In this document: positions 1,535 through 37,640 of the stretch, piece by piece
How the letters are laid out: the number at the start of each line of letters is the position of its first letter
How positions within the stretch are numbered: the first letter of the stretch is position 1
Assembly: GCF_016405985.1 (NCBI RefSeq)
Contig: NZ_JAEFCF010000045.1
Coordinates: 1-43,649 of the forward strand
DNA length: 43,649 nucleotides
DNA from: Paracoccus sp. IB05
GTDB lineage: Bacteria > Pseudomonadota > Alphaproteobacteria > Rhodobacterales > Rhodobacteraceae
Direction of reading: 5' to 3'
Translations under genes and position numbers: made by a program
Notes under the pieces: model-generated
The model's database searches: none
The model's input: the letters and a program-made list of their open reading frames with translations, nothing else
Told to the model about the DNA's origin: nothing

Positions 1535-2544
1535 AAACCGTCTCCCTGCCCCAGATCCACCGCCGCGTGCCCGTGGCGGAGGGCGGAACTGTTCTGGAAG
1601 CCGCCCTGCGCGCCGGTGCCCCTTTTCCCCATGGATGCCGTTCCGGGCGTTGTGGTTCGTGCAAATCGGAACTTCTCAGCGGCGAGGTGGAGATGCTACA
1701 GCATTCTCCCTTCGCCCTGACCGCCGCGGAGCGGGACTCGGGACAAATTCTCGCATGCCGCGCGGTTCCCAAAACCGATGTCACCGTCGCCTGGCTGGAT
1801 GATGAATTCATTGAAAAGCCCGCCATCCGCCAAAAGGCGCAGGTCATCGCCCGGGACAAGATGACGCATGACATCATGCGACTGCGGCTGGCGCTGGAGG
1901 CGCCGGTGAAATTCCGCTTTGCCGCAGGCCAATACCTGAACCTGACCATGGCGGATGCACCGATGCGCAGCTATTCCATGGCAAACCGTCCGGATGAAGC
2001 AATCGTCGAACTCCATGTCCGACATGTTCCGGACGGGAAAACCAGCACCGCCATTCACCGCGACCTTGCTGTCGGCGATAGAGTTGAAATTGAGGGCCCC
2101 TGCGGCTCCGCCTGGCTGCGCGATGCGCATGACGGGCCAATCATCGCGCTGGCGGGCGGGAGTGGGCTCGCGCCTATCAGGTCCATTGTCGAGACCGCCC
2201 TGCACGCCGGTATGAAGCAGCCGATCTGCCTTTATTTTGGCGTCAGGCGAGAAGAAGATCTTTATCTCGTCGACCATTTCGAGGACTTGGCAAAGCAGTT
2301 TCCCAACCTGACCTTCATTCCCGTTCTATCCCAGTCTGCAGCGACGCGCCACAGAACCGGCTTTGTCACAGATGCGCTGGCATTCGATCACCATAGCCTG
2401 GCAGATGCGCGCGCCTATGTCGCCGGCCCTCCGGGCATGGTGGACGCTGCCTATGCCGTATTGACCGAGCGGGGCGTGCCTGCGGCAAATATCCATGCGG
2501 ACGTGTTCTTCACACCCGAAGAGGAACATCCGAAGATTGCCTGA
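1531..2544 (+). CDS. 2Fe-2S ferredoxin:FAD/NAD(P)H oxidoreductase
   Basis: A 337-residue fused electron-transfer protein. The N-terminal plant-type ferredoxin domain has C36-X4-C41-X2-C44 (within CRSGRCGSCK) and a fourth Cys near residue 76 (LACRAV). An FAD domain follows, with the flavin motif RSYSMANRP, then an NAD(P)H domain with GGSGLAPI and a C-terminal AGPPGMVDA motif. This order is that of phenol-hydroxylase reductases and CDP-6-deoxyglucoseen reductases. The usual partner oxygenase is missing here. Its only operon neighbour is the glutaredoxin-like protein, so a role in thiol or metal-centre reduction is possible but inferred. The domain assignment is firm and the substrate is not. 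Confidence 0.88.
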   Translation: MKTVSLPQIHRRVPVAEGGTVLEAALRAGAPFPHGCRSGRCGSCKSELLSGEVEMLQHSPFALTAAERDSGQILACRAVPKTDVTVAWLDDEFIEKPAIRQKAQVIARDKMTHDIMRLRLALEAPVKFRFAAGQYLNLTMADAPMRSYSMANRPDEAIVELHVRHVPDGKTSTAIHRDLAVGDRVEIEGPCGSAWLRDAHDGPIIALAGGSGLAPIRSIVETALHAGMKQPICLYFGVRREEDLYLVDHFEDLAKQFPNLTFIPVLSQSAATRHRTGFVTDALAFDHHSLADARAYVAGPPGMVDAAYAVLTERGVPAANIHADVFFTPEEEHPKIA

Positions 2545-2566
2545 CTGCGGTGGTAGTTCAAAACGG

Positions 2567-2595
2567 TTGGTTCCCGTGACTGGAAGCCCTATATC
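2567..2595 (+). promoter_or_regulatory. promoter of the MerR-family gene with overlapping dyad
   Basis: TTGGTT (2567-2572) and TATATC (2590-2595) are 17 bp apart, a normal sigma-70 spacing, with the dyad TTCCCGTGACTGGAA (2571-2585) lying between and over the -35. The right half resembles the operator at 1151 (ACTGGAAG). The layout suggests repression by the regulator's own product rather than MerR-type activation. The gene starts 28 bp downstream. Confidence 0.5.
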
Positions 2596-2623
2596 AGGAG
2601 CGAAGCAAGCTCAGGAGAACATC

Positions 2624-3034
2624 ATGAACATCGGTTCTGCATCGGAACGGTCAGGTCTTCCTGCAAAAACGATCCGCTACTATGAAGAAATCGGCCTGCT
2701 GACTGCAGGTCGAAGCAACAATGGATACCGGGACTACTCTGCATCGGATGTCAGCCGCCTCCGCTTTCTAAAGAGATCACGCAGCCTGGGTTTTTCCGTG
2801 GAGGAGTGCCGCCAGCTGCTTTCGCTTTACAATGACACCGATCGCCAGAGTGCCGATGTGAAGGCGCTCGCGATGGTGAAGCTGGCGGATCTGGACGACA
2901 AGCTCAAAGAGTTGATGGAGTTGAGGAACACTCTCCAGCACCTCGTTCACAGCTGCAATGGGGACAGTCGATCGGAATGCTCGATTATCGACGGACTGGC
3001 CGATGAAACACTGCATGCAGGTGTAAAGAACTGA
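2624..3034 (+). CDS. cueR: CueR-type MerR family copper-responsive regulator
   Basis: 136 residues. The N-terminal winged-helix motif (KTIRYYEEIGLL) is typical of MerR proteins, followed by a long dimerisation helix and a C-terminal metal loop with two Cys eight residues apart (CNGDSRSEC), the spacing of the CueR ligands C112 and C120. The segment RQSADVKALA places Ser where divalent-metal sensors have Cys, which is the mark of Cu(I)/Ag(I)/Au(I) sensors. The C-terminal CCHH tail of E. coli CueR is absent. The start at 2624 is chosen because of AGGAG just upstream and the MerR-standard N-terminus. It is the only MerR protein seen in the window and the likely controller of the 19-bp-spacer promoters. 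Confidence 0.9.
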   Translation: MNIGSASERSGLPAKTIRYYEEIGLLTAGRSNNGYRDYSASDVSRLRFLKRSRSLGFSVEECRQLLSLYNDTDRQSADVKALAMVKLADLDDKLKELMELRNTLQHLVHSCNGDSRSECSIIDGLADETLHAGVKN

Positions 3035-3139: not shown

Positions 3140-3805
3140 ATGCTGACCAGACGCCACTTTATCGCAACGACTGCAGCGTTGTTTTCCGCGCCGCTCGCCG
3201 ACCCGGTATTTGCAAATAGCTGGCCTTCCGAATCGCAAATGGCGGCTTGGGATGCTCAGGTCACACCTGCGAATTACGACCCGGCGACAAGCAATCCCTG
3301 GGGGATCCATCCTCGCTTCCTCCCCAGGCGGGTCGAAGCAAATGACGGCTTGATGGCGGGCGATATCCATGTCGATGCGGTCGCCAGGTACCTTTACCAC
3401 ATTCAGTCTGACGGCACTGCCATGCGATACGGTGTCGCGATCGGCAGGGGAAACCTTTACGAACCCGGCACATACACGATCAAGCGCAAAGTCAAATGGC
3501 CGCACTGGACGCCAACCCAAAACATGATTTCCCGTGAACCAGAACTATATGGACGGTTCGCGGGTGGTGTCGAGCCGGGGCCAACAAATGCACTCGGCTC
3601 ACGCGCACTCTATCTCTACGTAGGTAATCGCGACACCTACCTTCGGATCCACGGGACGCCCGCGCAAAGGTCCATCGGCTCGCGCGCTAGTTCGGGCTGC
3701 GTGCGAATGGTAATGGCCCACGTGATCGACCTTTATGATCATGTTGCACCAGGGTCTACAGCATTCTTGTATCCCGGAGAAGATCGCATATCTGCCGCAA
3801 CCTGA
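3140..3805 (+). CDS. YkuD-type L,D-transpeptidase, exported
   Basis: 221 residues. The start, LTRRHFIATTAALFSAPLA, looks like a Tat-style signal peptide with twin Arg and a cleavage site near VFA-NS. The catalytic YkuD signature is present: HGTPAQ followed by SSGCVRM, with the nucleophilic Cys in SGC. Such enzymes form 3-3 crosslinks in peptidoglycan or attach proteins to it in the periplasm. It lies 105 bp downstream of cueR in the same direction and may be cotranscribed. I saw no separate 19-bp-spacer promoter. It is the first of three YkuD genes in the island (also 15516 and 21133). The motif order supports the family call well, but the acceptor is unknown. Confidence 0.9.
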   Translation: MLTRRHFIATTAALFSAPLADPVFANSWPSESQMAAWDAQVTPANYDPATSNPWGIHPRFLPRRVEANDGLMAGDIHVDAVARYLYHIQSDGTAMRYGVAIGRGNLYEPGTYTIKRKVKWPHWTPTQNMISREPELYGRFAGGVEPGPTNALGSRALYLYVGNRDTYLRIHGTPAQRSIGSRASSGCVRMVMAHVIDLYDHVAPGSTAFLYPGEDRISAAT

Positions 3806-3831
3806 AACTCTAACGCCCCTGACCCAATTAG

Positions 3832-3868
3832 AAAAAAAGACGGAGCTTGCATCTGAGCAAACTCCGTC
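3832..3868 (-). terminator. Rho-independent terminator of the cyd operon
   Basis: On the minus strand a hairpin with a 7-bp outer stem (GACGGAG/CTCCGTC, 3839-3868) and an inner TTGC/GCAA pairing is followed by seven T (3838-3832). It sits about 140 bp after the cydX stop. The plus strand lacks a T-run after the stem, so it terminates the minus-strand cyd transcript. Confidence 0.85.
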
Positions 3869-4005
3869 CGGAAATCTAAAATCATTATGCTTGAGTAACA
3901 GCTCGCGATAGCTTTCATCTTGCAAACTAAGGTAGACAATACACCAGTTCGGTCGACAGGAGCCGAAAGCTCCACTTCATTTCAATCAGCATTAATTTCT
4001 TAACC

Positions 4006-21855: not shown

Positions 21856-23805
21856 TCAGGGTGTGATCCCTGCGTGATTGGCGATAATATCTGCGGCTTT
21901 AAGGACAGCTCTCTCGACCGCAAGTTTACTGTCATCAGTCCGACGGAAGGCCAAAGGCTCAAGGCGGATCGGCGTCAGGGCTCGTACAATCGCGTCACGT
22001 CGACTAGGTGCACGCAATTTGGGATCCGAGACGGTATTAGCTCCTGCTGTCGGGAGAAGATCATTGCCTCGCATTTGACCTACGGCTTCCAGTCTTCGGG
22101 ATAGGAGTCCCACAGCATCTTCTGCCTCCTTTAGCCGGGAATCGTACCGCAGCTTCTCAGCATCAGGATACGGATAGCTACCCCACTGACCTTTATGGGG
22201 CAGTTGGAGTACAGGATCTTCGTAATACTTGATCCGCCGGGCCCGGATCGGCATTTGCGCATCGACCACGAGGATGACTTCATCAAGGTCAAGACGCCGC
22301 GCCTCATCCTCGTTCAACAGAGGCGTTTCCTCAGTGCGTTCCGTCACGCTGCGGCCTTCAAACGGGTTGCGCCCAACAGAGCGGGACCGCGTCACCACAC
22401 GCTTCGTTGTTTTCCCCACCGCCTGGCTCAACTCCTCGATGGTCTTCTGATCCGATGGTGTGAGGTAGAGTTTGACCCCTGCCCCACCCTGCAGGGACCG
22501 GCGGGTATTCTCACCATAGATCTCGTCCAGCGCCGGGATGGTCTGGGTAACGATGGCGAGGTTGCCGCCGAAGGAGCGTAGCGTCTTGATGCTTTCGGCC
22601 ACGATCGGCATCTTCCCGAGCCGGTCGAACTCATCGAGCATGATCATCACTGGCCAGGGTTCGTCTTCCCTCGGCTCGGCCGCCTGAAGCGATGCGATCA
22701 AATCCGAAAAAAACAGCCGGATGAGCGGCGCGAGGGGCCGGATCATCTCGGATTCCACCGCTAGATAGATGGAGTGCGGCTGACGACGGATATCCCGGAA
22801 GGAAAAATCCGATGTCGCCGTTGCCCGGTCAATTGCCGGATTGTCCCAGGTATCCAGGCCCGAGGTCATAAGGAGCGAGAGATAGGAGGTGAGGGTATCG
22901 TTGTTGGTGGAAGCCATGCGCTCGAAGATCAGCCTAGCCGAGGGGCTCTTCACCTCATGGGCGCGCTTGAGATACTCCTTCTGCTTGTCGCCTCCCGAGG
23001 CGGTGATGCGGTAGATCTCGCCGATGGTCGGAATCCCGCGCTCGAAGGCCAGAAGCCCGGCGGCCACAAATAGGTCGATCCCGCCAGCAAGCAAACCGTT
23101 CAGTTTCTCGTTGTCGGTCTGGAGGAAGAGCTTCGCGGTCAGCTTCAACTCCATCTGTTGCCGGTCGGAGTTGGTCATCGCCGCAATCCTCGCCAGCGGA
23201 TTGTAGCGGTGCGTCGGGCGCTCCCAATCCGTTGGAGCGAAGCGGAAAACCTTGTCGCCCAAGGAGGCGCGGAATCGCGCGGTTTCGCGGAAGTTCTCGC
23301 CCTTGACGTCGAGCACCACGGCGGAACCGCGATAGGTGAGCAGGTTCGGGATCACGAAGCCGACGCCTTTGCCGCGCCCGGTTGGGGCTACGACCAGCGC
23401 ATGCGGAAAGGTCTTTGAGACAATGAAGGGCTTCTTCGACTTCGGGGGGCCCATCTTGCCAAGAAGGAATCCGGCACCGGGTTTTGCGAAGAAGCCGTTG
23501 CGCTTCATCTCTGAGCGAGTTTGCCAATGGGTCAGTCCGAACCGGGTCAGCGCATCGCCCAGCATGGTCGCGGTGAGCAGAAGCGCCAGCAGGCCGGATC
23601 CGGCGATGATGCCATTGACCCAGAGAAAATCCTGCGGGGCCGTGTTGCGTAGGGCCAGCCAGTTTCGGGCCAGCAGCGTCAGGTCGAGGCTGCGGGTGGA
23701 GTGGCCATATTGCAGGACGAAGTAGAGCGTCGCCAGCACATAGCCGATGATCAGGCCCAGCAGGGTGAGTGTCGCGGCGGCGAAGGCCATCTTGCCCTTA
23801 TCCAT
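21856..23805 (-). CDS. traG: VirD4/TraG-type conjugative coupling protein
   Basis: 649 residues. Two membrane helices near the N-terminus (TLTLLGLIIGYVLATLYFVL and IIAGSGLLALLLTATMLGD) are followed by a cytoplasmic ATPase with Walker A APTGRGKGVGF and Walker B MIMLDEFDRLG, plus the VGKTTKRVVTRS region. It pumps the relaxase-DNA complex into a type IV secretion channel. The start at 23805 follows the hydrophobic N-terminus and overlaps the relaxase end by 8 bp. No secretion-channel genes lie next to it. The next feature downstream is the metal island. Confidence 0.94.
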   Translation of the reverse strand: MDKGKMAFAAATLTLLGLIIGYVLATLYFVLQYGHSTRSLDLTLLARNWLALRNTAPQDFLWVNGIIAGSGLLALLLTATMLGDALTRFGLTHWQTRSEMKRNGFFAKPGAGFLLGKMGPPKSKKPFIVSKTFPHALVVAPTGRGKGVGFVIPNLLTYRGSAVVLDVKGENFRETARFRASLGDKVFRFAPTDWERPTHRYNPLARIAAMTNSDRQQMELKLTAKLFLQTDNEKLNGLLAGGIDLFVAAGLLAFERGIPTIGEIYRITASGGDKQKEYLKRAHEVKSPSARLIFERMASTNNDTLTSYLSLLMTSGLDTWDNPAIDRATATSDFSFRDIRRQPHSIYLAVESEMIRPLAPLIRLFFSDLIASLQAAEPREDEPWPVMIMLDEFDRLGKMPIVAESIKTLRSFGGNLAIVTQTIPALDEIYGENTRRSLQGGAGVKLYLTPSDQKTIEELSQAVGKTTKRVVTRSRSVGRNPFEGRSVTERTEETPLLNEDEARRLDLDEVILVVDAQMPIRARRIKYYEDPVLQLPHKGQWGSYPYPDAEKLRYDSRLKEAEDAVGLLSRRLEAVGQMRGNDLLPTAGANTVSDPKLRAPSRRDAIVRALTPIRLEPLAFRRTDDSKLAVERAVLKAADIIANHAGITP

Positions 23806-26173
23806 GGCGGATGCCTTTCTCGCCGTCGGTCTGGTTGTGCCGTAGATCGTCGCCATGGCGATCTTCCACGATCCGGTCCAAGACTCTGTCCATGGCCGGA
23901 TCGCTGGCATGCACCTTGTTGGCCTCCAGCCAGACCTTCGCCAGTACAAGCTGCTGGCGCGGATTGTCGGTGATCGCCTCGAGGGCCTCGGCATCTCCGG
24001 ATCGCAGAGCGCGAATATCCGCATCGGTCAGCCGGGCGTTGACCTGCTCGACCAGCCGCGCCTGCCCTGCCTCTGACAAGGGCCGGACCTCGCCCTGCCC
24101 CGCCTCGCGCAGGACCGCGATCAGTTCCGGGGCGGATTCGGCCATATGGCGGCGCTCGGCGTAGACTTGGCGCAAGCGATCCTCGCTCTCGACGGCGCGT
24201 TCGCTGATATAGTCACGCGATGCTCCCTCAGCATAAAGGTGGTCGATCTCACGCTGCACTGCGGCGCGGACCTCGTCCGCCGGCATCTCGGCACGGTAAC
24301 GCGCCAGGGTTCTGGCCTCTTCGGTGATCGGGCCGATATCCCTGAACGGATCGCGCAGCGCGAGTTCCATGTCGCCGATATGCAAGCCGCGGTCCGCTTC
24401 CCTAACTCCGGATTTCGGGGGCTGGATGACATCGGTCGCCTTCTCCCACGCCATGGCTGCGAGTTCCGCATGCTGGGGCGAGCGCTGAGCGAAGCGGTCG
24501 AAGGCCACCGTAGCCTCGGCCACGCCCTTCTCGCCAGCCCGACGGGCCCGCGGATCATCGGAGTAGGAATAGCTGAAGTCAGTCCGCTCGAACTGATAGA
24601 CCAGCGCCCGGAACTCCTGACGCTCGGCCGGACTGTAGATGTCGGGCTCGCGGCCCCCACCCGCCGCATTATCCACCTCTGCCCGGTGCACGGCACGGTC
24701 AGAGGCCCGCGCCCTATTCTCCCTTTCCGGTTCTTCCCGCTCCACCTGCTCGACGGCCCTCAACACTCGCGCCTCGGTCAGGACATCTCCGAGCTTGCCA
24801 TGGACAGCCTCCAGCCGATCCATCGCCTGATCGCGCTGTACCTCATCGCGCAGGTCCAACCCTTCCTTTCCGGCAATTGCCCGCAAATCCTGTGCGAGCC
24901 ATTGCTGTTCCAGCGCGGCATTGCCTGCACCCTCGCGCATCCGGGCCAGAACCGCATCGCTGTCGATGCCGGTGCCCTGCACCGCCTCTGTGATGCGGGT
25001 TCTGAGAGCAGGGTCGTCCAACTGATCCCGATGCGCCTCCACAAGGTTCGGGGCGGCATAGATCCCGTCGCGGGACGCGGGTTCGTGCAAAGTGTCGGAC
25101 CGCTCGCCGAGCGGCTGCAGGTGTGAGACCTCGCGCAGCACATCGGTCAGTTTTCGCTCGATCACCGGGCGCTCGGTTGCCGGAGCCCGCTCGATCAGAT
25201 CCTCGATCTGCCGAACATTCTGCGTGAACCGGTCGATCAACTCGTCAAAGTCATGAACATCTTCACTCATATACAACACTCCGTCTGACTGGATACTTGC
25301 GCCCCGGGCCAACAGATCCCCTGCCCGGGTCAGGGCTTCCGCTACATCATGGAAGTTCGAACGCGAGGCCTCGGCCGCGAGACCTCGATAAATCGCGGCA
25401 TTGCGCGCGACCTCGGCCAGGGCGCGGTCAAGGTCAGGGCCGGTGCGCGGGCGTTCAGCCGCCACCCTACCCTCTGCCTCGGCCTTGCGGATCTCCGTCT
25501 CGTTGGCCGCGCGGGTCAGCACGCCCCGGTCCAGCCGCCGTGTCGCCTCGAGCCGCAGCCCGTGGCGCTCGGCCGCCTCGACCATGGCCTCGCGGAAGGC
25601 GTCATAGCTGAAGTGATGGTCCTTCCCGAGGAAGAACATCTCCCCGTCCTTGCTGCGACGGTTCAGCACGATATGGGCATGGGGATGGGCGCGGTCCTCA
25701 TGGATTGCAGCGATGTAGTCGAAGCGGGCACCATCGCTCTCAAAGAAGCGCTCGCAGATTTCGCGGGTGATCTCGCGCACCTCGGTTCTGCGGGTGCCGA
25801 TGGGAAAGGCCATCAGGAGATGCGAGGTATGGCCCAGCTTCGGCGCGTGGCGCTCGTTCCACTGGTTCTCGAAGCGCCGCGCCACCCGTTCGATCTCGCC
25901 GGGCGAGAGCACTTTCTTGCCATCATGGGTGCCTCGGGAATCTAGGATGAAGCTCGACTTGGTGGTGAGGTAGGAGAGCTGGGCGCGTAGCTGTGCCCCG
26001 GTATGGCAGCCGCCCTGGCGGATCGGCTTGAAGATCGCCGGCGAATGGCCGCGCGCGGCCCGCACCATCTGCGCGCGTTTGCCAAACCCGCCCGAGGCAG
26101 AGCCTGAGACCTTGCTCCAGCCTCGATCGAAGAGCGCAGGATTGATCGCCCGGACGGCGTCAGCGCGGGCCAT
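23798..26173 (-). CDS. VirD2-like conjugative relaxase
   Basis: 791 residues. The N-terminal relaxase domain has a likely catalytic Tyr in LRAQLSYLTTKS and the metal-binding HEDRAHPHAHIVLNRR (HxDxxHPHxH), which is the VirD2-family pattern. The C-terminal half is long, charged and mostly helical. The enzyme nicks oriT, stays bound to the 5' end and is carried into the recipient. The start at 26173 (MARADAVRAINPALF) overlaps the mobC end by 14 bp. The operon order mobC-relaxase-coupling protein is common on rhodobacterial plasmids. Confidence 0.93.
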   Translation of the reverse strand: MARADAVRAINPALFDRGWSKVSGSASGGFGKRAQMVRAARGHSPAIFKPIRQGGCHTGAQLRAQLSYLTTKSSFILDSRGTHDGKKVLSPGEIERVARRFENQWNERHAPKLGHTSHLLMAFPIGTRRTEVREITREICERFFESDGARFDYIAAIHEDRAHPHAHIVLNRRSKDGEMFFLGKDHHFSYDAFREAMVEAAERHGLRLEATRRLDRGVLTRAANETEIRKAEAEGRVAAERPRTGPDLDRALAEVARNAAIYRGLAAEASRSNFHDVAEALTRAGDLLARGASIQSDGVLYMSEDVHDFDELIDRFTQNVRQIEDLIERAPATERPVIERKLTDVLREVSHLQPLGERSDTLHEPASRDGIYAAPNLVEAHRDQLDDPALRTRITEAVQGTGIDSDAVLARMREGAGNAALEQQWLAQDLRAIAGKEGLDLRDEVQRDQAMDRLEAVHGKLGDVLTEARVLRAVEQVEREEPERENRARASDRAVHRAEVDNAAGGGREPDIYSPAERQEFRALVYQFERTDFSYSYSDDPRARRAGEKGVAEATVAFDRFAQRSPQHAELAAMAWEKATDVIQPPKSGVREADRGLHIGDMELALRDPFRDIGPITEEARTLARYRAEMPADEVRAAVQREIDHLYAEGASRDYISERAVESEDRLRQVYAERRHMAESAPELIAVLREAGQGEVRPLSEAGQARLVEQVNARLTDADIRALRSGDAEALEAITDNPRQQLVLAKVWLEANKVHASDPAMDRVLDRIVEDRHGDDLRHNQTDGEKGIRHG

Positions 26174-26747
26174 CGCGCACCTCCGCCACCAGGGGCGCCA
26201 ACGCCTGGCTGACCTCCAGTTCCAACGCGCGGCGGCGGTTGCGCGCCAGCTCTTGAATCTGGTCGGACATATCGAAGACCAGACCTGCCAGCGCCCGGAT
26301 CTCCGCCTGCTCAGGCACCGAAAGCTTCGCCACCTCACCCCTGACCCGGCCCTCATTCAGGCGGCGGGCAATCTGGTTGATGTTGTTGCCGACCCGGTTC
26401 AGCGCCGCGCCAAGGCCGCGCAGCTCTTCTGTCATGTATTCGTCCGGGGCCAGGAGATCATCTGCAGCCATCACGAAACGTCTCAGCGCATCGGTGCGGT
26501 GAGTGATCCCGCGTCGTGACAGGCTGGCGTCGAAAGCCCTCAGCTCGGCTTCGCTGACCCGCAGGTTCAGCACGCGGGTCCGACTTCCGTTCGAGATACG
26601 GCGACCGCTGGCATGGTTCACCGCATTGTAGACCGACACGACGCTGACGCCGTAGCGCGATGCCAACTCCCTCGCAGACACGCCTTCCGACCGCTCTTTG
26701 GCGATGCGCAGACGCTCCTCCTCGGTCAGTCGACGGGCCTTGGCCAT
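26160..26747 (-). CDS. mobC: MobC-like relaxosome accessory protein
   Basis: 195 residues. The N-terminal part (TEEERLRIAKERSEGVSARE, LASRYGVSVVSVYNAVNHA) looks like a helix-turn-helix, and the following segment (RVLNLRVSEAELRAFDASLS) like a ribbon-helix-helix. The central RGLGAALNRVGNNINQIARR is the hallmark MobC motif (NxxGxNxNQ). It would bind oriT and help the relaxase open the DNA. It is the first gene of the minus-strand transfer operon. No strong Shine-Dalgarno was seen close to the ATG, and AGGAG lies about 15 bp upstream. Confidence 0.88.
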   Translation of the reverse strand: MAKARRLTEEERLRIAKERSEGVSARELASRYGVSVVSVYNAVNHASGRRISNGSRTRVLNLRVSEAELRAFDASLSRRGITHRTDALRRFVMAADDLLAPDEYMTEELRGLGAALNRVGNNINQIARRLNEGRVRGEVAKLSVPEQAEIRALAGLVFDMSDQIQELARNRRRALELEVSQALAPLVAEVRDGPR

Positions 26748-26781
26748 TGTAAAGAAAACGCTCCTATTTCTTGCCAGAATC

Positions 26782-26834
26782 GTACAGGCCCGCCGACTCC
26801 CAGCACAAGCGGAGTCGGGCCTACGGGCCTGTAC
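26782..26834. repeat. nested inverted repeat, oriT candidate
   Basis: Outer arms GTACAGGCCCG (26782-26792) and CGGGCCTGTAC (26824-26834) are perfect complements, and inner arms CCGACTCC (26793-26800) and GGAGTCGG (26811-26818) pair as well, so a large hairpin or cruciform can form. It lies 35 bp upstream of mobC, where relaxase recognition sites often are. I cannot point to the nick site. Confidence 0.65.
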
Positions 26835-26842
26835 TCATTATG

Positions 26843-26864
26843 AAAAACCGCCCCCGAGGGGCGG
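26843..26864 (-). terminator. Rho-independent terminator between repeat array and mobC
   Basis: On the minus strand a 7-bp stem (CCGCCCC/GGGGCGG, loop of 3, 26848-26864) is followed by five T (26847-26843). It would stop minus-strand transcripts entering from the repeat array before they reach the hairpin and mobC. It implies a minus-strand transcript from the array, or serves as an insulator. Confidence 0.7.
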
Positions 26865-26868
26865 ATTC

Positions 26869-27169
26869 ACGGTGTCTGCACAATGCGTCACGTCCTATGC
26901 GATCTGCATCCCGTCTTCTGGAACGTGCGCCCCGTCCTCTGCCGTTTGCGGTACGTTTTCTGCGGTCTGCGCCACGTCATCTGCAATACGGGATATGCGC
27001 TCTGGACCCTGCATCACGCCCCCTGCGTCCTGCATTCTGCACAATGGAAAGTGCCGGTAGGGGAATGGGAGCTGCTATCCGCCATCTGCGTGACGCGCTC
27101 TGATTTCTGGAGAGTGCGCCACGTTCTCTGCGATCTGGTAATTGCGCTATGCGGTCTGCATTCTGCTTG
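26869..27169. repeat. array of 43 contiguous degenerate 7-bp units (probable centromere/enhancer)
   Basis: Reading the plus strand in steps of seven from 26869, all 43 units have G as third base. The second base is T or C in 42 of 43 (exception TAGGGGA, 27058-27064), the first is C or A in 37, and the fourth is C or G in 36. A typical unit is CTGCGNT. In the first part every third unit begins ACGT or CCGT, giving a 21-bp super-period (two helical turns). Seven is not a multiple of three, so codon structure does not explain it, and no spacers exist, so it is not a CRISPR. It ends 69 bp before the ParA/VirC1-like gene, whose partner is a ribbon-helix-helix protein. Confidence 0.85.
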
Positions 27170-27238
27170 ACCCGGCATGAAATGCTGCCTAGTCAATAAT
27201 ATTGTATCGTGTCGATTCAGTATTTATGTTGGTGTGCC

Positions 27239-27958
27239 ATGGCGAGTGACTCTCTGCGTGTGATCGCGACCATGGCCCGCAAAGGTGGGTCAGGCAAGAC
27301 GACCCTGAGCCGGGCACTCGTCAGCGCTGCTGCTGCAGCGGGTCGCCGTGTCACCCTGATCGACAGCGACAGTACTGGCGCCTTCGCGTCCTGGTACAAG
27401 CGTGCGGTAGCCAGTGGCTATGGATCGCCCTTGCTGACCCTGGTCAGGGCTGAGAGTGTCGAGACCATAGGCCGCGCCATCGATCACGCCTATGAGCATA
27501 ACCTTGCGGATCTCATCTTCGTCGACACGGCCGGTGTTGGCGCGGAATGGTCGGACGGCGTCGCAGTGCTGGCGGATCATCTGGTCACGCCGGTCATGCT
27601 CTCGACAACAGATCTCGATGTCGGCGAGCAGACGGCGACCTGGTTCGAAAACCTCCGCAACCGCGTCGACGACCCAAGCGCCCTGCCCCGCCATCACGTT
27701 GTGCTGAACATGGTCGATCCCAGACCGACCAAGGCCGATGCCGAGTTGATCGCGCGGGCGGTCAGCCGCTTCCCCGTCATCGAGACCGTGATGATGCGTC
27801 GCAAGGCCTACAAAGACATGGACCAACTGGGCCTGCTGCACGCCATCGCGCTGGAACGGCAGAACGACCCTAACCCGCTGATGAAACCGCATGTCCGACC
27901 GATTGTCGAAGCGCTGGAAGAGGCGGTCGATATCCTCAACGACATTCTCGCGGGGTAA
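27239..27958 (+). CDS. ParA/VirC1-like ATPase
   Basis: 239 residues. The deviant Walker A KGGSGKTT is at residues 15-22, followed by LIDSDS and the Walker B-like LIFVDTAG, so this is a small ParA/MinD-type ATPase with no N-terminal DNA-binding domain. The C-terminal stretch (FPVIETVMMRRKAYKDMDQL then GLLHA) resembles Agrobacterium VirC1, which binds the overdrive element and brings the relaxosome to VirD4. Plasmid partition is the other reading. The ATG at 27239 is chosen because homology starts there. Its location between a repeat array and a ribbon-helix-helix gene fits either function. Confidence 0.88.
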   Translation: MASDSLRVIATMARKGGSGKTTLSRALVSAAAAAGRRVTLIDSDSTGAFASWYKRAVASGYGSPLLTLVRAESVETIGRAIDHAYEHNLADLIFVDTAGVGAEWSDGVAVLADHLVTPVMLSTTDLDVGEQTATWFENLRNRVDDPSALPRHHVVLNMVDPRPTKADAELIARAVSRFPVIETVMMRRKAYKDMDQLGLLHAIALERQNDPNPLMKPHVRPIVEALEEAVDILNDILAG

Positions 27959-27965
27959 GGCAACC

Positions 27966-28523
27966 ATGGTGCGCAAACGCATTCCCCTCGTTACACGACC
28001 TGACCCGGACTATTCGGCCAGCCTGTCCCCGCATGGCCCGCGCCCGGATTCCGCAAGCAGCCTGCCCGAAAGCCCAATAAGCGTTGATACCGCTGAGCAA
28101 ATGCCGGACGCAGGGCGGACCATCGGGCCGGATCCCGTTGCCCAGCCGGATCGGATGGCATCTTCAATCCAGATCGACGTGCGCGCCACCGCCCTCGACC
28201 GTCAGGCAGCGGCGCTGTCAGCCTGCGGGATCGCACCGGCGCAGGTCATTCGTGCTGCCCTGCGCAGGGCCGTGAAGCGGTGGACCCTCTGCCCGACTTA
28301 TATGCCGCCTGCCCCGCACAAGCGTGCGGGCGATACCAGTTGGACTGCCAGGACCAGCGTGGCTGTCCCCGCTGCCGTATTCGACCGTCTTCAGGCGACA
28401 CAGGACCCGCTTGGCGTCTGCAGCCGCTGGTCTCTGGTCCGTGGCCAGTTGGAACCCTTGATATGGGAGGAGATCGACGCGCTCCTGGACACGCTGCAGG
28501 ATGACCATCCTTCTGCCGGCTGA
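27966..28523 (+). CDS. ribbon-helix-helix DNA-binding protein, ParA partner (VirC2-like?)
   Basis: 185 residues. After a disordered, Pro/Ser/Asp-rich N-terminus of about 65 residues comes a ribbon-helix-helix pattern: strand SIQIDVRA, helix LDRQAAALSACG, helix APAQVIRAALRRAVKRW. A second strand-helix-helix-like segment follows (TSVAVPAAVFDRLQ, then WSLVRGQLEPLIWEEI). Two such motifs in one chain would resemble VirC2, which folds as a pseudo-dimer. It starts 7 bp after the ATPase gene, so they are one operon. It is the obvious candidate to bind the heptad array upstream. The first motif is fairly clear and the second is an inference. Confidence 0.72.
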   Translation: MVRKRIPLVTRPDPDYSASLSPHGPRPDSASSLPESPISVDTAEQMPDAGRTIGPDPVAQPDRMASSIQIDVRATALDRQAAALSACGIAPAQVIRAALRRAVKRWTLCPTYMPPAPHKRAGDTSWTARTSVAVPAAVFDRLQATQDPLGVCSRWSLVRGQLEPLIWEEIDALLDTLQDDHPSAG

Positions 28524-28531
28524 ACCCGCTT

Positions 28532-29215
28532 TCAATCCCGGGATCGCCGACCTTTCGGTCCCCGATCAGGCCGGTTCAGGATCAAGCCGCGGCGGGTGGC
28601 AATCGCCACAGCATGGACCGAGTTCTTCGCCCCAAGGATCATGCGCGCCCGTTCCAGCCGCTTCTTGACGGTCTCGGGGCTGATCCCGCGTTTGCGCGCA
28701 ATCTGCTTGTAGGAGAGGCCGAGCGCCATGTCATCGATCATGTCGAGCTCGCTCCCCGACAGTTCCCGGTTTGCCCCGATCCGGGTGAGGATATGCCCGA
28801 GGATATGCTCAACCCCCTCCAACTCGCTGTCGGTCAGCTCCCGGTCTTCGCGGGCGCAGAAGAGAAAGCTCAGCAGCGCAGGTCGCCCCGGATCATGCCG
28901 CGAGGCCCCGCCACCGTAACACAGGCCGTGCCGTTTCGCGCTCTCCATCACCTGCGCCCCGGCTGCCGTGATGGACGACGGTTCCAGATCACTCCAGCGC
29001 ATCCTGCCGGTGTTGGTCCGCGCCCAGTGGTTGACCGGATCAAGCAGGGCAAATTGTCCGTCCCGGTATTGGATTAGCCACGGCTCAGGGAAGGTGGAGA
29101 CATAGTACTCCGGCGCCAATCCCCTCAGATGAATAACAAGTGAGTAGCCGCTGGTCCCGATCTGGCGCAACCGCGCGTCCAGCGCCGGCATTTCCGTCAT
29201 GAGTTTCCAAACCAT
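28532..29215 (-). CDS. LuxR-type autoinducer-binding regulator
   Basis: 227 residues. The N-terminal part matches autoinducer-binding domains: WLIQYRDGQFALLDPVNHW keeps the Tyr and Asp-Pro positions that contact acyl-homoserine lactone, and MRWSDL the conserved Trp. The C-terminal GerE helix-turn-helix reads LSYKQIARKRGISPETVKKR. No luxI is present in the window, so it is a solo regulator. The start at 29215 follows GGAGGGGG. An in-frame start at 29311 lacks this site. It is convergent with the ribbon-helix-helix gene, and a TraR-like role in controlling transfer is plausible but unproven. Confidence 0.88.
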   Translation of the reverse strand: MVWKLMTEMPALDARLRQIGTSGYSLVIHLRGLAPEYYVSTFPEPWLIQYRDGQFALLDPVNHWARTNTGRMRWSDLEPSSITAAGAQVMESAKRHGLCYGGGASRHDPGRPALLSFLFCAREDRELTDSELEGVEHILGHILTRIGANRELSGSELDMIDDMALGLSYKQIARKRGISPETVKKRLERARMILGAKNSVHAVAIATRRGLILNRPDRGPKGRRSRD

Positions 29216-29407
29216 TTCCCCCTCCCGCAGGTGTGGGAATACAACCTGCCACCTTACCCCAACGGGTATCCGCATGGAGAAGTCGCACCCGTTGTGACAG
29301 GTTGTGATCAAGCTTGTTCCGTTTCAACTCTCGGGTGACGAACCCCCCTTGATGCAAAGCGCCAAACTCAGGGACATTCGCCACTCTCTCTTTACTTAGA
29401 TATGGTT

Positions 29408-32253: not shown

Positions 32254-33297
32254 TCAGCGAAGTGTCATGAAGCGGCTGACGTCTTCAGGGGCGAGTTGCC
32301 CCCGGACCTGCGCCCGAAGCGCCTCCAGACCCGGCCCCATGAGATCGTCGTTGAAATCCCCCAACATGGGCGAGAGCGTGATGGCCTCGATGCCGATCTC
32401 ATGTGCCCGGGCGATCAGGCTGTCCCGCGCCCCTTCACCGGCCGGATCATTGTCGCGGATGATATAGAGCCTGCGCAGACCCGACGGGAACAGGATGGCT
32501 GCGAGATGTGCGGCCGACAGCGCCGAGACCATCGGCATCGTTGGCATGATCTGGCGGAGCGAGATTACAGTCTCGATGCCCTCCCCTGCCGCCATGATAT
32601 CCTGCGCGCGACCAAATCGGACCGCGTGGCCGAGCAGATCCCCCATCGCCTTGCGGGCTGGGTCGAGAGGCGCTTTCCCGCTGCCATCGCGGGCGAGCCA
32701 GGTACGGTGGACGCCGGTGAGTTTGCCGTCGAGGTCGGTGACTTTCGCGATCAGTGCGGGCCAGGTCTCGGTCGGACCTTCGCCCTCCGGACGATAATAG
32801 CAGTCAGGGTGAAAGCGGAGACTATCAGTGCCGCGCAAATCGGTCAGGCCACGGGTCCGCAGATAGGTGCCGGCGAGTGAGCCCCGAATGGGACCGGACA
32901 TGCGCCAGAGACGTTCTGCCGGTTCAGATGATCCTGAAGGGGATGGTGCCGATCTGCGCGTCTTCCCCTCTGGTGCCGGTTCCAGTTGCGGCAGGCTAAG
33001 GAACCGCCGAGCTTCCTTAGCGGCTGCGGTGAAATCGGCGAGCCCGAGGCTTTCGCGAATAACGTCGAGCAGATCGCCGTGTTCGCCATTCTGGCCATCG
33101 GTCCACTTACCCGCTGCGCCCTTGCCGGATGCTGGACCGGTAAGGCGGACGAACATCGACCGCCCAGGCGCGTTGCGCACATCGCCGACCTGCCAGTAGT
33201 TGCCCTCTTTGCGGCCGTTCGAGAGATAGTACCGGCACACCGCCTCGGCCTGTTGGCCGAGACGCTGCGACAGATCGGCGGCATCGATGCGGGCCAT
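32254..33297 (-). CDS. Toprim-domain primase-like plasmid protein
   Basis: 347 residues. The N-terminal region (YYLSNGRKEGNYWQVGDVRN and GKWTDGQNGEHGDLLDVI) resembles the zinc-free primase-type N-terminal domain found in plasmid proteins. The C-terminal Toprim fold has DIMAAGEGIETVISL (the Glu-containing motif) and RRLYIIRDNDPAGEGA (the DxD motif). Such proteins are thought to act in plasmid replication or transfer-strand priming. The ATG at 33297 shares one base with the stop of the upstream strawberry-notch gene (TGATG), so the two are translationally coupled. Confidence 0.85.
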   Translation of the reverse strand: MARIDAADLSQRLGQQAEAVCRYYLSNGRKEGNYWQVGDVRNAPGRSMFVRLTGPASGKGAAGKWTDGQNGEHGDLLDVIRESLGLADFTAAAKEARRFLSLPQLEPAPEGKTRRSAPSPSGSSEPAERLWRMSGPIRGSLAGTYLRTRGLTDLRGTDSLRFHPDCYYRPEGEGPTETWPALIAKVTDLDGKLTGVHRTWLARDGSGKAPLDPARKAMGDLLGHAVRFGRAQDIMAAGEGIETVISLRQIMPTMPMVSALSAAHLAAILFPSGLRRLYIIRDNDPAGEGARDSLIARAHEIGIEAITLSPMLGDFNDDLMGPGLEALRAQVRGQLAPEDVSRFMTLR

Positions 33298-36200
33298 CAC
33301 GCCGCCTCGCGCTCGGTGATACGGCTGATCGGATAGATCGCGAGCAGCTTACCGAGGATCGCGGTGCCGTGTTCCCCAACGGGCACGAAGAAGCGAAGCT
33401 TCCAGGAGATAATCTCGCTAAAGAGGCCCCAGGCCCGCAGTCGGTCGCGCATCACCTCGGTGAACCCGGTCAGTTCGATCCGGTTCGCGCCCATGACTTT
33501 TGAGCGGCGCAATTGCAGCCCCTCCTCCAGATCGAGGATCGTGCGACCGTCGAGAAGTGCAGCATAGGCCTGATCCGGGGTCAGGCTCACCGCGACACTG
33601 GTCGTGGCATTGGACGCCCATGCAGGCGAGACCCGGCGACCGATGATACGTTCGCCCGCATCCGTCTGGAGGCGGTAGACGCGGGTCTCATCCGGCGGCA
33701 AGCGCTTCCAGACCGGCAAAAGCAGGCCCGATACCACATGCAGAGTTGCGTCGGAAAACTCCGGCACATCAGCGACCTCGGCCCGCCATGCGGCCGCGAA
33801 GGTCTTCCTGTCGGTCTCAACCCAAAGGGTGTCACTCATCATCCTGACTGACATGCTGAAGGCTTCCATCGGTCGGATCAAGCGCACACGCCGTTCGATC
33901 TCGCCATCGTCAAGCATGATCGAAGTGGTCGGCACCTGCACCGCCGCCCGGTTTGAGCGGCTGTTTATCAGCAGTACCGCGCGCGGATCATCCAGTTCTT
34001 CCAGTGCGGCATCAAGGAGAAGCGGCTTGTTGCGCCGCCGTTCGGTGATGGTCAGAAGCCGGGTCTCCGCCCCGGTGCCGGGATGGGTATAGATCACCTG
34101 CCGGTCAGTGACGGTGAAGCTCTCGGCCTTCAACGTCTCAAGGCCCAGATCATAGATGCCGGCGGCTATCGCACCCTCGACCTTCGCCTCCAGCAGCTGC
34201 TCAAAGGCCGTGAAGAGCACGCCCTGCAACTCGATGGTCAGCGCCAACAGGCGGTTGAGGAAGGTGGTGATCGGCGGCAACTCATCCTTCATGCCATTGC
34301 TGTCCATCAGCTTCAGCCCGGTGGCGGCCTCGAACCGTTCCAGCGAGCAGCCCTCCACTTTGCCCCGCACAAGGAGAAGATAGAGCTGGCGCAAAGCGGC
34401 ACGAGCATAGGGGCTTTCGAGATTGTCCTCCGGCCGGAACAGCCCCTGCCCGCCAGTCTGGCGCTGGCCGCGGGTGATCGCGCCGAGTGTGTCGAGGCGC
34501 CGCGCGATCGTGCTGAGAAACCGTTTCTCCGCCTTCACATCCGTGGCGATTGGCCGGAACAGGGGCGGCTGCGCTTGATTGGTGCGGTTGGTGCGCCCCA
34601 GACCCTGAATGGCGGCATCGGCCTTCCAACCCGGCTCCAGCAGATAGTGCACCCGCAGCCGCTGGTTTCGCGCGGAAAGCTCGGCGTGGTAGCTGCGCCC
34701 GGTGCCACCTGCATCCGAGAAGACCAGGATACGCTTCTGGTCATCCATGAAAGCCGAGGTCTCCGCCAGATTGGCCGAAGCGGCGCGGTTCTCGACTGCC
34801 AACCGTGCCGCCGGACCTTCGCCCTTACGGACGATCCGCCGCGAGCGCCCCGTGACCTCTGCCACCTTCTCGGTCCCGAAATGCTGCACGATCTGGTCGA
34901 GCGCGCCCGGCACCGGCGGCAGGCCGGCCAGATGCTCGATCATCGCATCGCGCCGGGAAACGGCCTCGCGGCTTTCGACGGGCTGGCCATCCCGGAACAC
35001 CGGACGCGAGCTGATATTTCCCTCGCCATCGCTGAACGGCTCGTAGAGCTGCACCGGGAAGGAATGCTGCAGGTAGCTCATGACATACTCGCGCGGCGAG
35101 AGGTCGGTATTCAGGTCATTCCAGTCCTCGGTCGGGATCTCGGCCAGCCGCCTATCCATCAGCGCCTCGCCGGTCGAGACAATCTGGATGACAGCCGCGT
35201 GGCCCGCCGCCAGATCCGCCGAGATCGAACGCAAGAGCGTCGGCGTCTTCATTGAGGTCAACAGATGGCCAAAAAAGCGCTGCTTCGTGCTCTCGAAGGC
35301 GGATCGGGCAGCGGATTTGGCCTGGCGGTTCAGCGTGCCGTCCGAGCCGGTGATGTTTGCGGCCTCCATCGCCGCATCAAGGTTGTTGTGGATGACGGCG
35401 AAGGCCCCGGCATAGGAATCGTAGATCCGGCGCTGCTCATCGGTCAGCTGATGCTCGATCAGCTCGTATTCGACGCCATCATAGGACAGGGACCGCGCGG
35501 TATAGAGGCCGAGCGAGCGCAGATCCCGCGCCAGCACCTCCATGGCTGCGACGCCCCCGGCCTCGATCGCTTCGACGAACTCGGCCCGAGTGGCGAAGGG
35601 GAAATCCTCGCCGCCCCAGAGGCCGAGGCGTTGTGCATAGGCGAGATTGTGGACGGTCGTGGCCCCGGTGGCCGAGACATAGACCACCCGGGCATCGGGC
35701 AGGGCGTGCTGAAGCCGCAGACCCGCCCGGCCCTGTTGCGAGGCCACGACATCACCGCGCTCGCCCTTGCCGCCAGCGGCATTCTGCATCGCGTGGCTCT
35801 CGTCGAAGATGATGACCCCGTCGAAATCCGATCCGAGCCAGTCAGTGATCTGCCGCACCCGCGATGCCTTCTCGCCGCGCTCATCGGAGCGCAGCGTGGC
35901 ATAGGTGGTGAACAGGATCCCTTCCGAGAGCGTGATGGCCTTGCCTTGCGCGAAACGCGACAGTGGCGTGATCAGCAGTTTCTCCTGCCCAAGCGCGGAC
36001 CAGTCGCGCTGCGCATCCTCGATCAGCTTGTCGGATTTGGAGATCCAGACCGCCTTGCGCCGCCCGCGCAGCCAGTTGTCGAGGATGATCCCCGCCGATT
36101 GCCGCCCCTTGCCCGCACCGGTACCATCGCCAAGCATGAAGCCGCGCCGGAACCGCACGGCACCTGCGGCACCGGCCGGTGCGGCGCTGACCTTGTCCAG

Positions 36201-37640
36201 GGTCTCGTCGAGGGTCCAGGATCCTGCAAGATGATCGGAATGGGCCTCACCGGCATAGATCAGGGTTTCCAGTTGGGCGTCGGACAGGCGGGTGCAAATG
36301 TCAGCGGGCAGCAGTGGCCAGTAGGAGGGACGTGGCGGCGCGACCGAGGCCATGGCGGCGGATTGCACCAGCTTCGTCGGATGCGGGGCCGCGCCGGGAA
36401 TCCGAATCGATTGCAGCGTGTATTCCTCGTAGATCGCGTCCGAGAGCCGCGCGGCTTCGGGCGGGGTCCAGTCGATCGTCTCATAGGTCAGCTCAACGGC
36501 ATTCGGGCTGACATGAATGATCGGGAGAGGTTGCGAAGAACGCGCTCGAGCGAGATGGGATCGAACCGATCTGGCGGCTGCCGGTGCAGCCAGCGCCGCA
36601 GGCTTCGGGAGATCGACCGGCGGACGGGACGGCACCTGCGTCGCGATCCAGTCGAGCAGAGTGGCAACATCGGGGGCCATGCCGGAAGAGGCCGGGAAGG
36701 ACGAAGGGTTCTCGGCAGGAACCTTGTCGATCACCGTAAGGCGCGTGTCGAAACTCGTGCCGTGTTTTGCATAGACCGCTCCATTGATGGCGGCGGTGAA
36801 GACCACGCGGCCGCTCTCCTGCATACGGATGAAGGCTTCCCGCCAAGCGGGGGCTTCGGGGCCAAAGCCCGCACCGGTGATGGTAGCCAGACGCCCGCCA
36901 GGAGCAAGGCGGGCCAATGCCGAGGCGATATGGCGGAAAGCGGCATCGGAAACCCTGCCAGTGACGTTGGCCAGCGCGGAGAAAGGCGGGTTCATCAGTA
37001 CCACCGAAGGCACGATCTCAGCATCGAGATGGTCGTGGACCTGGGCCGCATCGAAACGGGTGACGGAAAGGGCCGGGAAGAGGAGCGAGAGCAGATCGCC
37101 GCGGGTTTCGGCCAATTCGTTCAAAGCGAGACTGCCGCCAGAAATCTCTGCGAGGATCGCCAGAAGGCCTGTGCCTGCCGAGGGTTCCAGAACGACATCA
37201 ACCGGTGTGATCGCTGCTGCGGTCAGAGCGGCAAGGCCGAGGGGCAGCGGCGTGCTGAATTGTTGCAGCGCCTGGCTTTCCTCGGAGCGGCGGGTGTGGC
37301 TCGGCAACAGGCCTGAGATCTTCGAGAGTGCTGCAAGTCGGGAACCCGGCGTGGCGGCTTTGCGGAAGATCGCCCGGCCGTATTTTCGCAGGAAGAGAAC
37401 CGTGGCGACCTCGCAGGCCTCATAGGCCGTCTTCCAGTCCCAGGCACCGCTGGCGTCGGATGTGCCGAAGGCCTTTTGCATCGCGTCGCGCAAGATGCCA
37501 GCATCGACAGGCTGGCCGCGTTCGAGACGCGGCAGCAATGCCTGGGCCGCGGCAAGGATCGCGGCCGCGCCGGAGCCAAAGGCAGGCGCTTTGGGCGCGA
37601 CCGGCGCTTGCGCCATGGTCGCGGGAGACAGATCGTTCAT
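33297..37640 (-). CDS. strawberry-notch-type helicase fused to a methyltransferase-like domain
   Basis: 1447 residues. The N-terminal third is methyltransferase-like: LEPSAGTGLLA (AdoMet site) and VVLMNPPFSAL (NPPF catalytic motif, near residue 216). The following strawberry-notch/SF2 helicase domain has LGDGTGAGKGRQSAG (Walker A, near 508), IIFDESHAMQNA (DESH box, near 613), FSDAGGTGRSYHAEL and GLGRTNRTNQAQPP. Homologues are common on alphaproteobacterial plasmids and phages. Their role is uncertain: DNA remodelling, antirestriction or replication support have been considered. It heads an operon with the Toprim gene. Confidence 0.9.
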   Translation of the reverse strand: MNDLSPATMAQAPVAPKAPAFGSGAAAILAAAQALLPRLERGQPVDAGILRDAMQKAFGTSDASGAWDWKTAYEACEVATVLFLRKYGRAIFRKAATPGSRLAALSKISGLLPSHTRRSEESQALQQFSTPLPLGLAALTAAAITPVDVVLEPSAGTGLLAILAEISGGSLALNELAETRGDLLSLLFPALSVTRFDAAQVHDHLDAEIVPSVVLMNPPFSALANVTGRVSDAAFRHIASALARLAPGGRLATITGAGFGPEAPAWREAFIRMQESGRVVFTAAINGAVYAKHGTSFDTRLTVIDKVPAENPSSFPASSGMAPDVATLLDWIATQVPSRPPVDLPKPAALAAPAAARSVRSHLARARSSQPLPIIHVSPNAVELTYETIDWTPPEAARLSDAIYEEYTLQSIRIPGAAPHPTKLVQSAAMASVAPPRPSYWPLLPADICTRLSDAQLETLIYAGEAHSDHLAGSWTLDETLDKVSAAPAGAAGAVRFRRGFMLGDGTGAGKGRQSAGIILDNWLRGRRKAVWISKSDKLIEDAQRDWSALGQEKLLITPLSRFAQGKAITLSEGILFTTYATLRSDERGEKASRVRQITDWLGSDFDGVIIFDESHAMQNAAGGKGERGDVVASQQGRAGLRLQHALPDARVVYVSATGATTVHNLAYAQRLGLWGGEDFPFATRAEFVEAIEAGGVAAMEVLARDLRSLGLYTARSLSYDGVEYELIEHQLTDEQRRIYDSYAGAFAVIHNNLDAAMEAANITGSDGTLNRQAKSAARSAFESTKQRFFGHLLTSMKTPTLLRSISADLAAGHAAVIQIVSTGEALMDRRLAEIPTEDWNDLNTDLSPREYVMSYLQHSFPVQLYEPFSDGEGNISSRPVFRDGQPVESREAVSRRDAMIEHLAGLPPVPGALDQIVQHFGTEKVAEVTGRSRRIVRKGEGPAARLAVENRAASANLAETSAFMDDQKRILVFSDAGGTGRSYHAELSARNQRLRVHYLLEPGWKADAAIQGLGRTNRTNQAQPPLFRPIATDVKAEKRFLSTIARRLDTLGAITRGQRQTGGQGLFRPEDNLESPYARAALRQLYLLLVRGKVEGCSLERFEAATGLKLMDSNGMKDELPPITTFLNRLLALTIELQGVLFTAFEQLLEAKVEGAIAAGIYDLGLETLKAESFTVTDRQVIYTHPGTGAETRLLTITERRRNKPLLLDAALEELDDPRAVLLINSRSNRAAVQVPTTSIMLDDGEIERRVRLIRPMEAFSMSVRMMSDTLWVETDRKTFAAAWRAEVADVPEFSDATLHVVSGLLLPVWKRLPPDETRVYRLQTDAGERIIGRRVSPAWASNATTSVAVSLTPDQAYAALLDGRTILDLEEGLQLRRSKVMGANRIELTGFTEVMRDRLRAWGLFSEIISWKLRFFVPVGEHGTAILGKLLAIYPISRITEREAA

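Follow-up and report, generated by a model that had tools for sequence, protein, structure and literature searches.

An array of heptads beside a probable transfer origin

The window, the whole stretch of 43,649 nts of Paracoccus sp. IB05 DNA that was analysed, contains a long run of direct heptads between genes for conjugative transfer and a gene for a VirC1-like ATPase. The features concerned, with the basis of each assignment in parentheses, are:

21856..24024, minus strand: VirD4/TraG coupling protein (ORF limits)
23798..26356, minus strand: VirD2-like MOBP relaxase (ORF limits; true start unsure)
26160..26747, minus strand: MobC/VirD1-like relaxosome accessory protein (profile matches)
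26759..26776, plus strand: nic-like motif CGCTCCTATTTCTTGCCA, roughly 90 bp before the first G of the array (assigned by resemblance)
26782..26834, no strand assigned: 11-bp inverted repeat GTACAGGCCCG / CGGGCCTGTAC, arms 26782-26792 and 26824-26834 (sequence)
26848..26864, minus strand: terminator-like hairpin at the array edge, toward mobC (consensus match only)
26862..27169, plus strand: array of 44 direct heptads NYGNNNN with G at every seventh base (run, autocorrelation and relatives)
27239..27958, plus strand: VirC1-like ParA ATPase, 239 aa, with Walker motif KGGSGKTT (PF07015)
27966..28523, plus strand: VirC2-like protein with a basic N-terminal tail, a low-confidence linker and two ribbon-helix-helix modules (position and predicted fold)

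The mobC, relaxase and coupling-protein genes are to the left of the array and read away from it. Their best NCBIfam matches are VirD1 for the mobC product (E 1.3e-4) and VirD2 for the relaxase (E 2.1e-24), both below the curated cut-offs. The motif CGCTCCTATTTCTTGCCA, which we take to resemble nic sites of the MOBP/VirD2 kind, reads CGYTCCTATTTCTTGCCA in 9/9 usable aligned rows (the row of L035 was left out of the 10). When the motif is relaxed, 44 of 50 related loci have it in the 1000 bp before virC1; it is absent upstream in L009, L023, L048, L050, L053 and L054, some of the stretches being shorter than 1000 bp. With nic so placed by resemblance, the predicted junction being 26773/26774, the array would be on the leading side of the transferred strand. 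The inverted repeat probably belongs to oriT, and it is probable that the array adjoins the transfer origin of a conjugative element. In this genome there are VirB4 matches on contigs C37, C40 and C50 and none on the contig of the window, C48. Further along, the window has genes for a Toprim/DUF7146 protein similar to part of TraI (32254-33300) and for a strawberry-notch-type helicase (33297-37640).

The unbroken run of G at period 7 comprises 44 units, with its first G at 26864 and its last at 27165, and when the whole window is scanned it is the longest single-base run at any period from 2 to 39; elsewhere the best is a run of 13 As at period 3 (position 10925). With a local G frequency of 0.28, the probability of 44 consecutive Gs is about 10^-24 per start, and chance is therefore excluded as the origin of the array, as it also is by the shuffle tests below. 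The 43 heptads counted in the original prediction do have G at their third position in 43/43 cases and a pyrimidine before it in 42 (31 T, 11 C, 1 A). The autocorrelation that it proposed as a check is 0.446 at lag 7, 0.418 at lag 14 and 0.511 at lag 21, compared with 0.165-0.303 at lags, up to 48, other than multiples of 7. The 21-bp super-period that it also described is present weakly in the window's clade (z = 4.0, with 0/300 unit-order permutations as strong, for 7 partly related arrays that singly give p 0.007 to 0.19), where groupings of 2, 4 and 5 units do not stand out in the same test. However, it is not general: in 10 arrays of other clades the three-unit grouping has z = 0.58, and some have a two-unit alternation in its place. 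Within the array, at 27044-27071, is a purine-rich block of four heptads (ATGGAAA GTGCCGG TAGGGGA ATGGGAG) that is less degenerate than the remainder and reappears mid-array in the closest related arrays. With 140-bp windows and periods of 5, 7, 8, 10 and 11, no further periodic array was found in the window or in a complete 44-kb relative plasmid, nor in the 49.3 of 54.3 kb scanned likewise in a second one.

The ATPase passes Pfam PF07015 (E 9.6e-22, 77.9 bits, cut-off 24) and its best NCBIfam match is the VirC1 equivalog NF010423, at 81.2 bits, under the cut-off of 313. The ribbon-helix-helix gene had been placed by the original prediction in the next operon; instead it starts 8 bp after the stop codon of the VirC1-like gene, on the same strand. 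The AlphaFold2 model of its product has strand-helix-helix twice in one chain (mean pLDDT 68.6), a second, trimmed model being worse and without strands. The six best Foldseek matches of the model in the PDB (E 0.049-0.12, so that none reaches E 1e-3) include DndE, a chain of the F relaxosome and, at rank 6 with E 0.12, VirC2 of pTiC58 (2rh3). The F chain is presumably TraY because it is also matched in 9f10, which lacks TraM. Among viral models one unnamed match is below 1e-3, and at rank 4 is an archaeal-virus ribbon-helix-helix protein (3.7e-3). Used as a single query, the window protein has no sequence match in Pfam, NCBIfam or the PDB; the NCBIfam VirC2 model NF010436 does not match it at E 0.01, and relatives L019 and L022-L025 have no VirC2 match at E 1. 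A 15-row profile of VirC2-like proteins gave two unconvincing PDB matches (E 1.9 and 8), Pfam on the 15 proteins gave single-member matches only (best E 0.042), and profile comparison with the VirC2 of a Haematobacter plasmid (L061, below) gave a probability of 3.5% and E 0.012. The designation VirC2-like refers to position and predicted fold, not to established membership of the VirC2 family. The basic N-terminal tails, of which RKKRPNIQGHNPDY and MARKKRPNIQGHNPDYSTNF are examples, resemble by eye the N-terminal peptide of ParB-P1 printed in PMC9499535. Beside the virC2-like gene, at 28532-29311, is a gene for a LuxR-type regulator with an autoinducer-binding domain (pAMI8 too has a LuxR gene there), and transfer is possibly under cell-density control via this regulator.

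Spread, pitch and anchor base in related loci

A second locus of the same build is present in the same genome, on contig C37 (L004; about 2475-2749, minus strand, 40 units), so two related systems coexist in one Paracoccus sp. IB05 cell. That locus has its own mobC and virC1/virC2-like genes, and its contig also carries one of the VirB4 matches. A search of GTDB contigs gave 11 loci, with the array, of 33-51 units, in 11/11; one of them, L005, has an array and a VirC1-like protein identical to those of the window and may come from this genome or a close one. Relatives of VirC1 are present at E 1e-5 in 231 PLSDB records. The order of mobC-position gene, gap, virC1 and downstream gene is kept in 10/10 plasmid records, and single-base runs reveal a clear 7-bp array in 6 of the same 10, those of L022-L025 being none, weak or different. 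The VirC2-like profile matches in 30 of 292 genomes of the order and, in a class-wide sample, in 1 of 385, which is the source genome itself.

All 25 loci of the window's clade that were compared (near-copies included) have a single base at strict pitch before the virC1-virC2-like genes, next to a nic-like site and genes of the VirD1, VirD2 and VirD4 kind. A uniform test was applied to 50 loci: the 700 bp before virC1, where present, were scored at periods 4-14 against 20 dinucleotide shuffles per locus. The 50 are what is left of 56 after removal of L001-L003 and L030 (duplicates of the window or of the contig C37 locus) and of L038 and L055 (partial VirC2-like matches and no VirC1 match); they still include near-identical copies, and one place twice (L004 and L056). 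The periodic stretch exceeds all 20 shuffles in 49/50. Its best period is 7 in 43 loci and 4 in two, and the periods 8, 12, 13 and 14 are each best in a single locus. L022 passes weakly (period 7, score -2.1), L024 has a T/G-rich stretch of period 4 only, and the locus that fails, L023, has TRF periods of 22, 37 and 96, an imposed period of 22 giving G in 12/12. As a control, virC1-virC2 coding DNA scores below 0 in 50/50 at periods not divisible by 3 (best -7.2), and at most 7.8 when periods divisible by 3 are included. The 7-bp phase is thus kept beside conserved neighbouring genes in the related loci, the comparison for which the original prediction had asked.

The anchor changes with lineage. 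The window's clade has NYGNNNN, Phaeobacter the C-A anchored GACAAGC/AACACCG and Leisingera ACGAAAC, and other consensuses include CATCAGA, CGCACAC and ACGCATC. On a VirC1 tree of 39 rows (11 near-duplicates, all with best pitch 7, were removed) the 7-bp arrays span three clades, and other pitches are on deep, long branches of unsure placement. Among five plasmids with VirC1 of low identity (10 shuffles each, keeping base composition only), the pitch is 7 in Paracoccus versutus, 8 in Bradyrhizobium, 9 in Haematobacter and 13 in Paracoccus; the fifth, Rhizobium sp. BT04, has a virC operon whose VirC2 is over the model cut-off, and no periodic array in the 1000 bp upstream. Haematobacter pOT1-9 (L061) has the same layout, with a ATATATCCTGCC site at about 3426 and a 9-bp array at 3723-3966, and its second gene, annotated as VirC2 family, matches the VirC2 model at E 4e-14, below the cut-off. 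The ATATATCCTGCC site is T-DNA-border-like, and its presence with the 9-bp array and the VirC2-family gene makes this locus a possible bridge to the Ti system. Two further plasmids may be mentioned. The 44-kb Leisingera NZ_CP083550.1 has annotated T4SS genes together with this module and is non-mobilizable according to MOB-suite, despite an annotated relaxase and coupling protein. Phaeobacter inhibens pP78_f (NZ_CP010635.1), typed as conjugative, has predicted floR and sul2.

Readings of the array

In 364 aligned heptad pairs (from 9 pairs of clade-A arrays, the pairs partly overlapping) the G differs in 1, and the other six positions differ in 21-36%. In the profile of 359 units from 8 arrays, NYGNNNN, the G has 1.79 bits, the preceding base 0.63 and the rest at most 0.22. 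Unit number ranges from 33 to about 53, and length changes are of whole units with one exception, a 1-bp phase break between blocks of 23 and 27-28 units that is shared by L018, L027, L028, L029 and L031. A G is occasionally missing (present in 52/53 units of L034 and 52/54 of L035). It is very improbable that all this reflects the coding of a repetitive peptide or a functionless minisatellite by-product of slippage. Three plus-strand ORFs of 95-120 aa do overlap the array in the window, and the variation in unit number can be counted for either. However, the arrays differ in the frames in which stops occur, and every 7-bp unit added or removed changes the frame, which leads to rejection of coding; a conserved protein-coding reading, the counter-evidence named by the original prediction, was looked for in the related arrays and is absent. 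Slippage would homogenise every position, whereas the G alone is fixed in aligned arrays and the others diverge by up to 56% between arrays, and neutral slippage is therefore rejected too; moreover, the phase is still there in relatives with as little as 30-38% identity in VirC1. Judged from these alignments, a single base of the array is under purifying selection for register, as distinct from homogenisation.

The register likely serves a binding track for the VirC1/VirC2-like pair, overdrive- or parS-like, that would enhance transfer and possibly serve partition. A single-chain tandem ribbon-helix-helix protein would sit on each heptad in the same orientation, 33-53 copies side by side, with its two different modules forming an asymmetric unit suited to reading direct, non-palindromic sites, one per 7 bp. 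At 7 bp a unit covers two thirds of a helical turn and three units cover two, and adjacent units could form a polar protein spiral, about 50 units long at most. The basic N-terminal tails of the VirC2-like protein would recruit and stimulate the VirC1-like ATPase, activation by the tail being suggested because of the parallel with omega. The complex could then aid assembly of the relaxase complex at nic some 90 bp away and hand it over to the VirD4-like coupling protein, the part that VirC1/VirC2 and overdrive play for T-DNA. In the excerpts available of PMC4285021 and PMC10530663, VirC1 binds overdrive and VirC1 with VirC2 raises T-strand output; from the VirC1/VirC2 work (these two and PMC4949242, likewise in excerpt) the outcome to expect is better relaxosome assembly and delivery to the coupling protein. 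On plasmids without another ParA the array may double as a centromere, and an array extending to the start codon of virC1 is probably an operator as well. To be set against the track are the missing sequence matches of the VirC2-like protein, the Rhizobium sp. BT04 operon with no array upstream, the failing locus L023 and the shared 1-bp phase break. Which of the two proteins would make the contact was approached with partial Mantel tests on 22 arrays. Divergence of the consensus is correlated with the distance between VirC1 proteins (partial r 0.46, p 0.002) and not with that between VirC2 proteins (partial r -0.17, p 0.98, with a VirC2 alignment that is poor at such distance), so that a consensus following VirC2 rather than VirC1 is rejected and VirC1, or another protein, could be the reader.

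That the array is primarily a centromere, a partition site like those of type Ib ParABS systems that is merely beside oriT, is possible if on the whole doubtful. In type Ib systems parS is upstream of a short parA and a ribbon-helix-helix protein is downstream, which is the layout here, with an array, a 239-aa ATPase and, 8 bp further on, a gene whose product is modelled as ribbon-helix-helix. In five of 10 records searched with ParA and ParB_N models (W04, W05, W07, W08 and W09, of 44-74 kb) the VirC1-like gene is the sole match of the ParA model PF13614 (E 0.001). The same five lack a ParB_N match of ordinary ParB size (2 have none and 3 have it in an ORF of 617-672 aa), and the 44-kb Leisingera plasmid has an annotated repC and no annotated repA or repB. 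Omega parS needs at least 4 contiguous heptads for full ParA activation, and the likeness of N-termini such as RKKRPNIQGHNPDY to ParB-P1 can be added here (PMC9499535, in the part available). Nevertheless, the other five records have ParA and ParB_N matches in ORFs of RepA/RepB size, and repABC (roseobacter-type) of pMM259 is by itself stably kept in two hosts, according to an excerpt of PMC5613091. In favour of transfer are the nic site, relaxase gene and VirD1-like gene linked to the array, and the affinity of the ATPase to VirC1. By analogy with R388, where one set of sites affects both stability and transfer, a dual role would be plausible here, and both options of the original prediction, a centromere or an overdrive-like enhancer next to oriT, survive. 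It is unlikely that the array is mainly an operator by which the VirC2-like protein autoregulates its own operon and perhaps mobC. The last anchor base is 1-6 bp before the inferred virC1 start in L019, L021, L041, L043, L045, L046, L050, L051 and L052, from which it follows that the promoter would lie inside the array, and omega sites overlap promoters (PMC9499535, same part). Yet 33-53 contiguous sites are far more than repression needs, and the last G of the window's array is 74 bp away from the virC1-like gene (measured on the identical locus L005). A search of 26700-27300 gave no sigma-70-like match, so the promoter is not placed.

Phased arrays are far wider than first reported from the window. 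A literature search, in the text accessible to it, gave no recognised published description of them, and in the accessible text of two roseobacter plasmid papers there is no word beginning with oriT, VirC or overdrive (PMC11481893) or with oriT or VirC (PMC5613091). Tentatively, and with the doubt that a wide generalisation deserves, the arrays may form a single broad class that has so far gone undescribed, in which conjugation modules of the VirC1/VirC2 type have a long phased track that has its own anchor base and pitch (7, 8, 9, 12 or 13 bp). Overdrive would be this track in short and displaced form, the track would be centromere and transfer enhancer at once, one nucleoprotein filament would decide between inheritance and transfer, and lineage-specific codes would separate coexisting plasmids. 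The way in which ParA-like proteins link conjugation with the movement of DNA is not settled, in part since overdrive is a short element whose reading is unclear. The arrays are a natural series of dozens of sites, with anchor base and pitch changing from one relative to the next, so that the rule a ribbon-helix-helix/ParA pair follows in reading DNA can be tested directly. On the plasmids where the VirC1-like protein is the sole ParA-model match, shared machinery for segregation and transfer is testable by one deletion.

Comparison with known systems

Omega sites are 7-10 repeats of WATCACW, direct and inverted, with one dimer per repeat, and the delta/omega parS of pSM19035 is like the array in its 7-bp pitch, in contiguous non-palindromic repeats and in having a ribbon-helix-helix protein with ParA (PMC9499535, as far as available). 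Here, in contrast, there is one nearly invariant base, 33-53 units that are all direct, and two predicted ribbon-helix-helix modules per chain. The contiguous 7-bp repeats are shared, whereas the consensus is not, the profile of the window's clade being NYGNNNN and not WATCACW. The omega parallel of the original prediction thus stands for pitch and layout (a ribbon-helix-helix protein with a ParA partner) and does not for sequence, copy number or orientation, and its remark that the array differs from omega heptads and is much longer is borne out (33 to about 53 repeats against 7-10). The array does not belong to the omega family.

In R388 StbA and StbB work with repeats near oriT that affect stability and transfer, and stbABC has in common with the present locus that the repeats adjoin oriT and that the partner is ParA/VirC1-like (PMC3098194, in excerpt). 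Its stbDR differs in consisting of 9-bp TTGCATCAT repeats, in two sets of five with 2 bp between repeats, where the pitch here is 7 bp, and in its operon StbA precedes StbB. The likeness to F TraY is that the F relaxosome chain, presumably TraY, is among the best fold matches of the VirC2-like model. MetJ binds tandem 8-bp boxes; ribbon-helix-helix proteins of the TraY or MetJ type bind few sites and are not known to share an operon with a ParA partner.

The Agrobacterium Ti system shares a ParA-type VirC1 followed by a VirC2-type protein (here so called by position and predicted fold), VirD1-, VirD2- and VirD4-like partners and a cis element, in the Ti system an enhancer, near the nicking site (PMC4285021 and PMC10530663, in the excerpts available). 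It differs in that the VirC2-like protein of the window is unmatched by the VirC2 model. Overdrive is short and is at the T-DNA border, not before virC1, whereas here 33-53 phased units lie between the nic-like site and virC1. The original prediction had named overdrive only; the set of VirC1, VirC2 and overdrive is a closer parallel than omega, and it looks as if the array works like overdrive, stbDR and parS arrays.
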